Below are positions 48,736 to 51,493 of a DNA stretch of 64,000 bases, in pieces. The stretch comes from Streptosporangiales bacterium. Its GTDB lineage: Bacteria; Actinomycetota; Actinomycetes; Streptosporangiales; WHST01. The DNA lies in contig WHTA01000002.1 in assembly GCA_009379825.1 (NCBI GenBank), positions 1 to 64,000 on the forward strand. Reading direction: 5' to 3'. The notes beneath the pieces are model-generated. The model did not search any database. It was not told the origin of the DNA and saw only the letters and a program-made list of their open reading frames with translations. Position numbers and translations under genes: made by a program. Within the stretch, counting starts at the first letter, position 1. Every line of letters starts with the position of its first letter.

Positions 48736-49158
48736 ATGGGTTGCGGGTCGAAGCCGTTATGGGCGGGCAAATGCACGTGGTTCTGTTGCGGCAACAAGTG
48801 GGGGCCGTGCAAGTCGGCGGGTAACGGCGCGTGCGGCACCTGCCAGTCGAACAAGCTGATGGGGGCGTGGCCGTACGCGTCCGACAACTGCTGGGACATC
48901 ACCCGGCCGGACCGCTGCGGCGAGAAGCTGCCGAAGCGCGGGTGCGGCGCGGAGATGAAGGTGAAGCACAACTGCTCGGGCAAGAGCGTCTGCATCACCA
49001 TCGCCGACTGCGGGCCGCGGACGAAGAGCTTCTGCGACGCGAAGTCGTGCTGCGGCTCGACCTGCCGTACGAACCACATCATCGACCTCACCCCGGCGGC
49101 GTTCGTCAAGATCGGGAACCTGGACAGCGGCCACGTCCCTGTGCTGATCTACGAATGA
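48736..49158 (+). CDS. 17-cysteine double-psi-barrel-like protein
   Basis: A 140-residue protein with 17 cysteines, many in the N-terminal half as CC or C-x2-C groups, and no evident signal peptide. From about residue 70 it shows the pattern of an RlpA/expansin-like double-psi beta-barrel: HNCSGKSVCITIADCGPR and IDLTPAAFVKIGNL. Such proteins are usually extracellular. The cysteine content predicts a disulfide-rich or metal-binding protein. The ATG is eight bases after GGAG. It overlaps the next, Tat-exported gene by ATGA, and a MauE-like gene follows, suggesting joint export and disulfide maturation (inference). Confidence 0.75.
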   Translation: MGCGSKPLWAGKCTWFCCGNKWGPCKSAGNGACGTCQSNKLMGAWPYASDNCWDITRPDRCGEKLPKRGCGAEMKVKHNCSGKSVCITIADCGPRTKSFCDAKSCCGSTCRTNHIIDLTPAAFVKIGNLDSGHVPVLIYE

Positions 49159-49757
49159 GCGGCATCGACCGCAGGAACTTCCTCACCGCAGCGGCGTTGA
49201 GCGGGGCCGCGATCGTCGGCGCCTCCGCGCTCGGCGGGCTGGACGCGGACGCGGCGTTCGCGGCGCCGACGAAACCGTTGGATCCCGCGGTGTCGGAGAG
49301 CTCGTTCGCCGAGGGGGTCGTCACCGCCAGGAACGGCAACATGCTGACCGTTGCCGGCTCATACGGGGAGACGCACCACGTGCAGGTCACCAACGCCACC
49401 AGCATCTGGAAGCTGCGCCCGGCCGACGCCGATGCGATCGAGCTCGGCGACGGCATGTACGGGCGTGGCGTGCCGATGCCCGACGGCAGCATCGCGGCGG
49501 ACGCCGTGTGGCTGAACATCGTGAACCTCGACGGCGACCTGACGGACGTCGGCCAGGACCGGCTTACGCTCCTGCACGCCGGCCACTCCATCCTCGGCCG
49601 CGTCGTCCGCGGACTCACCGTCGCGAAGGTGGCCGGCCGCGCCGCCACCGCCGACCTGTCCGGGCTGCGGATCGGGCACAGCGTGCAGGTGCTGGGCGCC
49701 TGGAACCCGGCGGACGACTCGGTGGACGTAGCCAGGGTCACCGCGGGCGGGTCGTGA
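49155..49757 (+). CDS. Tat-exported protein with DUF5666-like repeats
   Basis: A 200-residue protein with a twin-arginine leader (DRRNFLTAAALSG, then AFA near residue 35). The mature part has repeated beta-strand segments (EGVVTARNGNMLTV, ILGRVVRGLTVAKV and VQVLGAWNPADD) that look like small OB-like or DUF5666-type domains. It starts inside the last codons of the Cys-rich gene and ends at 49757, where the MauE-like gene begins. The three genes are a unit. Function unknown. Confidence 0.72.
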   Translation: MSGIDRRNFLTAAALSGAAIVGASALGGLDADAAFAAPTKPLDPAVSESSFAEGVVTARNGNMLTVAGSYGETHHVQVTNATSIWKLRPADADAIELGDGMYGRGVPMPDGSIAADAVWLNIVNLDGDLTDVGQDRLTLLHAGHSILGRVVRGLTVAKVAGRAATADLSGLRIGHSVQVLGAWNPADDSVDVARVTAGGS

Positions 49758-50596
49758 TGGAGCTGAGCGTCGATGTCGGCGGGTGGGCGGCTGCGGCGGT
49801 GGTGGTGGCCGCGCTGCTCGTCCGGTCCGGCACGGCGAAGGTGTGGCCGTCGGCGTCGGCCGCACCTCCCGAGGCGCTGGTCGTGCTCGCGGGTAGCAAG
49901 CCGCGGGCACGACTGGCGCTGCGGGCCGTCGGGCTGGGCGAGCTGGCGGTGGCCGGGGCGGTGCTGTTCGCGCCGCCGGCCGGCGGCGGCGTGGTCGCGG
50001 TGCTCGGCGTGGTGTTCTGCGGGTACCTGGCGTGGGCCAGGAAGGTGGCGCCGGGCTCCTCGTGCGGGTGCGGGTCGGAGGCGTCGCCGATCACCTGGCG
50101 TACGTTCGCGCGTGCGGCGACCCTCACCGCCGGCGGCACGGTCGTCGGGGTCGGGACGCATCCGTGGTGGCAGGTGGCGCAGCTGCGGCCGGTCGCGTTC
50201 GTAGCGGCGCTGCTGTGTTGCGCGGCGGTCGTGCTGGCGGTCTCGCCGGCGTCGTACCGGTGGCTGCTGCCGCTGCGGCGGCTGCGGGTGCGGCTGTTCG
50301 GCCACCCGCTGGCGGCGGACGAGGACCTGCCGCCGGCCGCGGCCGCCGTCGAGCTGCTCGAGGCGAGCGTGGCGTGGCAGTCGACGGCCCACGTGGTGCG
50401 GTCGAGCCTGCTGGAGCACTGGCTGGTGGACGGCTGGCGGATCCTGCGGTACGCCGGCCGGTACGGCGCGCGCCCGGTGACGGTGTTGTTCGCGGTCGAC
50501 GCGCGGGCGCGGCTGGGGGATCGCGGGGAGCCCGTGGTGCGCGTCTCGGTGCTCGACGACGAGACCGACGAGCAGCTGGCGCTGGCTTCCCCGTAG
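49757..50596 (+). CDS. MauE/DoxX-like membrane protein
   Basis: A 279-residue protein with about four helices in its N-terminal 140 residues and a CGCG motif (GSSCGCGSEAS, Cys103 and Cys105) typical of MauE-like proteins, which in methylamine dehydrogenase clusters support disulfide formation of a Cys-rich subunit. After the helices comes a soluble tail of about 120 residues. ATG 49757 overlaps the previous stop by one base; GTG 49754 is adjacent. The tail resembles no family I recognise. Confidence 0.75.
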   Translation: MELSVDVGGWAAAAVVVAALLVRSGTAKVWPSASAAPPEALVVLAGSKPRARLALRAVGLGELAVAGAVLFAPPAGGGVVAVLGVVFCGYLAWARKVAPGSSCGCGSEASPITWRTFARAATLTAGGTVVGVGTHPWWQVAQLRPVAFVAALLCCAAVVLAVSPASYRWLLPLRRLRVRLFGHPLAADEDLPPAAAAVELLEASVAWQSTAHVVRSSLLEHWLVDGWRILRYAGRYGARPVTVLFAVDARARLGDRGEPVVRVSVLDDETDEQLALASP

Positions 50597-50615
50597 GCCG
50601 CCGGGGCATGGAAAA

Positions 50616-50655
50616 CCCCGGCCCTATCCGCTCGGGGGTTCGAACAGGGCCGGGG
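50616..50655 (+). repeat. Hairpin repeat copy 1
   Basis: CCCCGGCCCT (50616-50625) pairs with AGGGCCGGGG (50646-50655), a 10-bp perfect stem. The 20-base loop holds the shared core GCTCGGGGGTTC (50630-50641). It is flanked by AAAA on the left and, on the right, by a 17-base segment (50656-50672) also found beside copy 5. It may serve as terminator of the Cys-rich/MauE cassette. Confidence 0.8.
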
Positions 50656-50680
50656 CTCTGTGGTGTACATCGAGCCTGTC

Positions 50681-50736
50681 GGTCGAGTGTTACAGCTCCC
50701 GGAGGTGTTTCCGTGCTAACCGGGTTTCACTCGACC
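50681..50736 (+). repeat. Inverted repeat between hairpin copies 1 and 2
   Basis: GGTCGAGTG (50681-50689) pairs with CACTCGACC (50728-50736), a 9-bp perfect stem enclosing 38 bases that can form a smaller CCCGG/CCGGG hairpin. It resembles a two-tier RNA fold. There is no ORF within it. Function unknown. Confidence 0.55.
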
Positions 50737-50749
50737 AGTTGCAGTTTTC

Positions 50750-50791
50750 AGCCTCGGATCGATTGCTCGGGGGTTCAACCAACCCTTGGCT
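50750..50791 (+). repeat. Hairpin repeat copy 2 (degenerate)
   Basis: The loop core GCTCGGGGGTTC (50765-50776) is intact, but the outer arms pair only as AGCC/GGCT (50750-50753, 50788-50791) with some GG/CC support. It looks like a decayed member of the family, or a loop kept for another reason. Confidence 0.55.
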
Positions 50792-50806
50792 TTGATGGAG
50801 AAATCG

Positions 50807-50847
50807 CGACGGCTCGTGCTTTCGTTACAACCGTCGGTGACTTTTTT
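50807..50847 (+). terminator. Hairpin with T-run
   Basis: CGACGG (50807-50812) pairs with CCGTCG (50831-50836), followed by GTGAC and TTTTTT at 50842-50847. The loop is long (18 bases), so it is a modest terminator. It follows hairpin copies 1 and 2 and could end an RNA that contains them. Confidence 0.4.
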
Positions 50848-50894
50848 GGCTCCGCCGTGCCCTACGCAGGTCAACACCGCTGCGGACATGGTTC

Positions 50895-50938
50895 AGCCCC
50901 GGCATCGCTTGCTCGGGGGTTCAAACGATGCCGGGGCT
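50895..50938 (+). repeat. Hairpin repeat copy 3
   Basis: AGCCCCGGCATCG (50895-50907) and CGATGCCGGGGCT (50926-50938) form a perfect 13-bp stem. The 18-base loop holds GCTCGGGGGTTC (50911-50922). Stem sequence differs from copies 1 and 4 while pairing is kept. Downstream CATCGAGCC recurs beside copy 1. Confidence 0.82.
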
Positions 50939-51198
50939 TCTGTACATGTCATCGAGCCGACCCCCGCCGACGTTACGGGCCACCCGAACTTTTTCTCGCC
51001 CCCCGCTGTGACCCGCCCCACAACCAACCCACGGCGAGGCGCGCGACGGCCGCGAGTGGGCCACGTGCGTGCCGAGTGAAGCGAAGGCCTCCAGCCACGC
51101 ACCTTCCACCGGACGCAGGGAACCCGGGGGTCTGGGGCCGGGCCCCCAGAAAGAAACAAAGGGATCAGGGAAATTGGCGAGGCCGCCAATGAACAGGC

Positions 51199-51234
51199 CC
51201 GCCGCTGCCCGCTCGGGGGTTCAGGCAGCGGCGG
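51199..51234 (+). repeat. Hairpin repeat copy 4
   Basis: CCGCCGCTGCC (51199-51209) and GGCAGCGGCGG (51224-51234) form a perfect 11-bp stem. The 14-base loop is CGCTCGGGGGTTCA. The stem is unrelated in sequence to copies 1 and 3. Confidence 0.82.
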
Positions 51235-51401
51235 ACCGTTACTCGCACATTCTTACCGGTCAGTAGCCAGGGCTGCGCAGCTGCTGCGACGGATCGTCAC
51301 GTGACATGCACGGTTGGGGGCGCGGGTGTTCCGGCGGCCCACTGTCGGCGGCCGTCGTAGGTGTCCGGCTGCGGCCATTCATGGGGGGCTGGAGAGAAAA
51401 T

Positions 51402-51432
51402 ACGGGCCGCGGGCGTAACGCCCGCGGCCCGT
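51402..51432 (-). terminator. Strong minus-strand terminator
   Basis: A perfect 14-bp stem ACGGGCCGCGGGCG (51402-51415) / CGCCCGCGGCCCGT (51419-51432) with a TAA loop. On the minus strand it is followed by ATTTTCTC. It lies just beyond hairpin copy 5 in the same direction, so it may end a small RNA that carries copy 5. Confidence 0.75.
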
Positions 51433-51453
51433 GCCCCGATGTACACCACAGAG

Positions 51454-51493
51454 CCCCGGCGCTGCCTGAACCCCCGAGCGGGCGGTGCCGGGG
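51454..51493 (-). repeat. Hairpin repeat copy 5 (opposite strand)
   Basis: On the minus strand the loop reads CGCTCGGGGGTTCA (51467-51480). The 13-bp arms (51454-51466 and 51481-51493) pair with two mismatches. Next to it, 17 bases (51437-51453) are identical to the flank of copy 1. The terminator at 51402-51432 follows. It is inverted relative to copies 1-4. Confidence 0.78.

Follow-up and report, generated by a model that had tools for sequence, protein, structure and literature searches.

Three adjacent genes in the window (by which we mean the whole 64,000-nucleotide stretch of Streptosporangiales DNA analysed here) make up a real conserved module. They lie on one strand and encode a leaderless, Cys-rich double-psi beta-barrel protein (P1), a protein with a Tat signal (P2) and a MauE-like membrane protein (P3). 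To our mind, there is an even chance that this cassette represents a Tat hitchhiker pair equipped with a disulfide-forming membrane enzyme of its own, the CGC motif of the latter acting on the inside and oxidation preceding export. This reading builds on what was observed directly: the genes and their conservation, the missing leader of P1, the Tat leader of P2, the conserved cysteines and a fused sister form.

A search of 84,980 species genomes with a P1 profile returned 193 relatives, of which the best 80 were taken; these came mainly from Streptomyces, Actinacidiphila and Nonomuraea, plus a Stackebrandtia MAG. In the best 80 of the 193, P2 was found downstream of P1 at every locus (80/80) and P3 was third at all 77 loci with enough contig, while three contigs stopped right after P2; being the closest loci, they bias these frequencies towards close relatives. 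Seven further loci, including that of the window, had P2 in 7/7 cases and P3 in 6/7. Taken together, P2 stands next to P1 in 87/87 loci examined and P3 is third in 83 of the 84 with enough contig, with the reservation that at least one of the seven further loci probably comes from the same strain as one of the 80 (the upstream stretches of L039 and L104 are identical). The exception is G003 (L031:5128-5448, minus strand), where P1 and P2 are followed by an ORF without a clear start codon; no MauE domain was detectable in this third position, although the ORF weakly resembles the C-terminal domain of P3 (E 1.5e-4 in a one-locus search), and it is possibly a remnant or an assembly problem.

Such conservation of the set across genera rules out chance. 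Within the class, the cassette is patchy: P1 and P2 occurred at strong scores in the same 5 of about 390 genomes (394 in the P1 search) and nowhere else, and the P2 search added three weak matches, each spanning only a DUF5666-sized part. Co-occurrence of the genes in other genomes, which the initial annotation had suggested looking for, is thus borne out by both the neighbourhoods and the genome counts. That annotation had also held that shared export would fail if P1 homologues lacked their partners or carried signal peptides; we found no homologue without a P2-like part and none with a signal peptide of its own. Clustering of neighbours at 67 loci revealed no other conserved gene, and we rejected a larger operon, as no fourth gene was conserved. 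In the window, P1 and P2 overlap by 4 bp and P2 and P3 by 1 bp. These overlaps are not kept across homologues, the genes in Streptomyces usually being set apart by short gaps. P1 and P2 are each single-copy in the source genome, where a second MauE-like match, below the cut-off, lies elsewhere. Searching with the P1 sequence alone gave no relative, and it was the P1 profile that found them. In the phylum sample, P1 appeared only in the source genome; plasmid records yielded a single match, in an 11.85 Mb record (Nonomuraea gerenzanensis), and the phage search yielded none.

Two features of the flanking DNA deserve a record of their own. The DNA separating the cassette from a dapA-like gene (window positions 50608-51493) holds five exact copies of GCTCGGGGGTTC, at 50630, 50765, 50911 and 51211 on the plus strand and at 51468 on the minus strand; the 6.15 Mb genome has no others. 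At least three of the five form the constant loop of a hairpin, whose stems differ and yet pair, and one copy scored 28.5 bits against the Rfam F6 sRNA, below the gathering threshold of 46. Upstream of P1, TTGTCATG was present within 150 bases in 41 of 74 Streptomyces-type loci (L040-L113), frequently at a distance of about 35-55 bases from the start; judging by its placement, it could be a regulator site or a promoter element.

P1 (48736..49158, plus strand; 140 aa) contains 17 cysteines and scores 33.7 bits against the Pfam family DPBB_1 (PF03330), above the cut-off of 28.8. No signal peptide was found in P1 or its homologues. The gap between the in-frame stop and the ATG in the window is 7 codons, and in several homologues, the window included, such a stop lies just 5-15 codons upstream, making a hidden leader impossible there. 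Sampled homologues share the same M-A-C-G-S N-terminus with a ribosome-binding site ahead of it. A wrongly chosen start codon masking a leader is thus ruled out by the near upstream stop together with the shared start, and the description of a 17-Cys double-psi-barrel protein lacking a signal peptide, given in the initial annotation, agrees with these results. Of the 17 cysteines, 14 are invariant across 87 sequences, C3 and C86 vary jointly and C13 is extra. Both C3 and C86 were present in 78 of these sequences and both absent from 9, whereas neither ever occurred singly; such joint behaviour suggests that they form a disulfide, and their loss may have been a single evolutionary event in one clade.

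The AlphaFold model of P1 (pLDDT 88) is a double-psi barrel. Among known folds, PA4485 (4avr) comes closest, with a Z of 13.8 and an rmsd of 1.5 over 92 residues; next, at Z of about 10-12, are a cyanophage baseplate domain, kiwellins, expansins, the loosenin PcaLOOL12 and the Streptomyces papain inhibitor (SPI). P1 therefore shares the double-psi beta-barrel fold with loosenins, the D1 domain of expansins, kiwellin, SPI and RlpA/PA4485. At the sequence level, the PDB returned no match to the P1 and P3 profiles, and single-sequence phmmer gave nothing more than a weak match at chance level. The likeness to expansins extends to the IDLTPAAF segment of P1, which resembles the expansin segment holding the key Asp and contains D117, invariant in 55 sequences; position 14 is T or S in all seven aligned sequences. 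For BsEXLX1, Asp82 and Thr12 are presumed to make up the D1 site (PMC9888185), and T/S14 and D117 of P1 would correspond to T12 and D82 of that protein. Nevertheless, P1 scores only 15.9 bits against the NCBIfam model NF041144 (EXLX1; cut-off 100) and has no D2 domain, since the protein stops after D1. It also has far more cysteines than loosenins and microbial expansins and, unlike these proteins, which bear secretion signals, it has none, so that P1 does not qualify as a secreted loosenin. Binding of a polysaccharide outside the cell is the likeliest guess for P1 from its fold, although a fold match is no demonstration of such binding.

P2 (49155..49757, plus strand; 200 aa) begins with MSGIDRRNFLTAAALSGAAIVGASALGGLDADAAFAAP, a Tat-type leader with an RRNFL motif and an AFA-A cleavage site, and scores 19.0 bits against the NCBIfam Tat signal model TIGR01409 (cut-off 16.7). 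The twin-arginine motif was found in 86 of 87 P2 homologues, the sole exception being a split ORF, and the AxA site in 84 of 87; the hydrophobic region of the homologues has a mean 15-residue hydropathy of 1.56. With all three elements in place, P2 is, by sequence criteria, a Tat substrate, and TatC is present in the source genome. Against DUF5666 (PF18914), P2 stays below the cut-off (18 bits versus 27). From residue 51 onward, the AlphaFold model has a pLDDT of about 90, and the mature part consists of two OB folds matching PriB, SSB and CusF at Z of about 9 (CusF 9.2). Since these are tied, generic OB folds, we set them aside as a guide to the function of P2. The mature part contains no cysteine in 67 of the 87 homologues and one in the remainder.

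Taken together, the P1 and P2 genes have the arrangement of a hitchhiker pair, a leaderless cargo encoded beside a partner with a Tat signal. The same arrangement is known from MelC1/MelC2 of Streptomyces, where a leaderless cargo and a Tat-signal helper are likewise encoded side by side: MelC2, which has no signal peptide, leaves the cell in complex with the Tat protein MelC1, while its homologue MelD2 is intracellular, the homologous MelD pair without a Tat signal remaining inside (PMC2758597). The two systems differ in their folds; the cassette has no copper enzyme, its cargo is disulfide-rich and a MauE-like membrane protein is its fixed third member.

The partnership of P1 and P2 is also strongly supported by a sister locus of Streptosporangiales, in which P2-like and P1-like domains are joined in one gene; next to it lies a gene for a related MauE, likewise with the extra C-terminal domain. 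The fused protein is roughly 320 aa long, its N-terminal part resembling P2 and its C-terminal part being a weak DPBB/P1 match; in profile-profile comparison, the N-terminal half matched P2 at 97.1% (E 7e-11) and the C-terminal half matched P1 at 90.8% (E 1e-6). All 25 weak P1/DPBB matches examined had this fused gene together with MauE. Natural fusion of proteins that are encoded separately elsewhere is standard evidence of joint working and, given this fusion beside a MauE gene, we regard it as well supported by the sequences that P1 and P2 are partners. One genome (G034) carries one P1 cassette and a second weak match, probably the fused form, while a search of the source genome with the fused profile returned P1 only.

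Of the Tat leader, the fused protein retains the RR...LTAALLG start; hydrophobic stretch and AxA region have both been lost. Its truncated Tat leader is apparently non-functional and the fused form is probably not exported; without a working-looking signal in this widespread form, export may not be universal. The Asp at the position of D117 is lost in it as well. Two of its Cys columns, roughly equal to C80 and C106 of P1, were both present in 33 and both absent in 3 of 36 distinct sequences, never singly, the loss resting on those three. In the fused proteins of L156-L173, the RRR..TAALLG N-terminus is conserved despite the absent Tat hydrophobic region, and this segment may have a separate role. 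In 12 of 18 sister loci (L158-L173; motif search, one Pfam-confirmed), the fused gene has a divergent neighbour that encodes a sigma-70/ECF-type sigma factor; no such gene adjoins the cassette of the window.

The third gene product, P3 (49757..50596, plus strand; 279 aa), scores 36.3 bits against Pfam MauE (PF07291; cut-off 27). Family scores and overlaps thus confirm the initial annotation of a Tat-signal gene overlapping P1 and a MauE-like gene overlapping P2. The same annotation gave the motif of the MauE-like protein as CGCG: a Cys motif is indeed present (residues 103-105), while its conserved core is CGC, found between TM3 and TM4 in 82 of 83 homologues, the exception being a split ORF. 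P3 shares its Pfam family and the CGC motif with the MauE of mau clusters and differs from it in the extra C-terminal domain (about residues 183-279) and in the presumed client, a barrel protein. As had been noticed from the window alone, methylamine dehydrogenase is absent: neither a conserved dehydrogenase nor any other mau gene accompanies P1-P3 at the 67 loci, which rules out a methylamine-dehydrogenase reading.

The hydropathy of 82 homologues indicates five TM segments in P3. Lys and Arg cluster at three places: the TM1-TM2 loop, the CGC loop (net charge about +1.7) and a very Arg-rich stretch that leads into the soluble C-terminal domain and is on the same side as the CGC loop. The TM2-TM3 loop is nearly free of them. 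The sister MauE proteins (17 sequences) have the same charge pattern. By the positive-inside rule, this distribution predicts that the CGC motif and the C-terminal domain are on the cytoplasmic side, a topology based only on hydropathy and that rule, with a modest net charge of the CGC loop. With the motif predicted inside, the disulfides would be set before export, not after it.

From these data, we infer a P1:P2 complex, the facing of the CGC motif, oxidation before export, the export itself, a ligand and a cell-wall function. P1, a disulfide-rich barrel of the loosenin/expansin-D1/RlpA fold, could not be exported alone, being leaderless. In the cytoplasm, it would bind the two-OB-fold P2, and the CGC of P3, at the inner membrane face, would form or shuffle the P1 disulfides, with the membrane as the probable acceptor of the electrons from this oxidation. 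Once P1 is folded, the complex of P1 and P2 would then exit through the Tat translocase on the signal peptide of P2. Outside, P1 would probably bind a cell-wall or environmental polysaccharide, since the putative expansin-type Thr/Ser and Asp positions are kept. Co-export and disulfide setting by the cassette are plausible, and the order would probably be oxidation first and export second. The initial annotation, which had proposed shared export and maturation, fares well in that the partnership, the leaderless P1, the Tat leader of P2 and the CGC of P3 hold at nearly every locus; it fares less well in that the CGC is predicted to be cytoplasmic and the fused form has no working-looking signal. 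The Tat pathway exported PhoA and antibody fragments only when their disulfides had formed beforehand (PMC6708511), a requirement that a CGC enzyme facing the cytoplasm would fit. On the other side, the lack of a detectable MauE domain beside P1 and P2 of G003 counts against this reading, as do the fused form without a hydrophobic region, with regard to export, and the Tat export of some other proteins without prior disulfides (PMC6708511).

The last observation also favours a rather unlikely alternative, proposed in the initial annotation, in which the module is the same and P3 works on the outer face, P1 being carried reduced or partly folded with P2 and receiving its disulfides after export. 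A separate VKOR oxidase, encoded apart from the cassette in the source genome, fits such an arrangement. Methylamine dehydrogenase is a periplasmic enzyme, and it is in its beta-subunit that MauE has been speculated to form disulfides (PMC7794033), which likewise speaks for the outer face. Nevertheless, the CGC loop of both MauE groups carries a net positive charge and shares its side of the membrane with the Arg-rich stretch, pointing to the cytoplasm, and with so many cysteines in P1, a cargo that is folded while still reduced is less likely.

If the CGC is indeed cytoplasmic, one might also think of P1-P2-P3 as an intracellular or membrane-associated redox complex at the inner face, with the P2 leader acting only as an anchor or being lineage-specific. 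The fused OB-OB-DPBB form, with just a truncated RR segment, is consistent with this, as is the coexistence of exported and intracellular versions of MelC/MelD in Streptomyces (PMC2758597). We consider such a complex unlikely: nearly all P2 homologues keep the full hydrophobic region and the AxA site, which is hard to explain without export, and P1 retains D117, the putative expansin-type Asp, which the fused form has lost. Under the preferred hitchhiker reading, the MelC/MelD split could have its counterpart here, in an exported cassette of separate genes and a fused sister without a leader.

It is improbable that P1 is instead a metal-binding Cys-rich protein or maturation chaperone without disulfides, with P3 handling metal or thiols. 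Many cysteines in a protein made in the cytoplasm would suit this idea, and the copper carrier CusF (Z 9.2) is among the OB-fold matches of P2. Yet CusF ties with many unrelated OB folds, the mature P2 is nearly devoid of cysteines, the cysteines of both P1 and the fused form vary in pairs, and the fold relatives of P1 include disulfide-bearing wall proteins (PMC9888185).

Finally, we rejected as hardly credible a RiPP locus with P3 as the modifier of a Cys-rich precursor: decRiPPter does list three RiPP candidate families from Streptomyces in which mauE homologues adjoin small Cys-rich precursors with at least 8 Cys, and the available portion of that paper describes no Tat/OB partner for them, but the scan took products under 100 aa (PMC7794033), whereas P1, at 140 aa, is a folded domain with a recognised Pfam fold, and the neighbourhoods of the 67 loci share no modifying enzyme, protease or transporter.

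In the literature searched, mainly non-subscription papers, we found no description of this three-gene set. The Tat system exports folded proteins, and the cytoplasm is normally reducing. How a disulfide-dependent cargo folds before Tat export remains an open question, so far bypassed by engineering (CyDisCo, PMC6708511). Tentatively, and with rather less confidence than in the hitchhiker reading itself, we speculate that the cassette is a dedicated bacterial system in which a MauE-type CGC enzyme on the cytoplasmic side sets the disulfides of a leaderless Cys-rich protein, the folded cargo leaves by Tat on the signal of its partner, and the fused sister stays inside. With a natural cassette that unites a leaderless cargo rich in Cys, a carrier with a Tat signal and a membrane thiol enzyme whose motif is predicted to lie inside, this question would become directly testable, and such a cassette could aid the secretion of disulfide proteins from Streptomyces.
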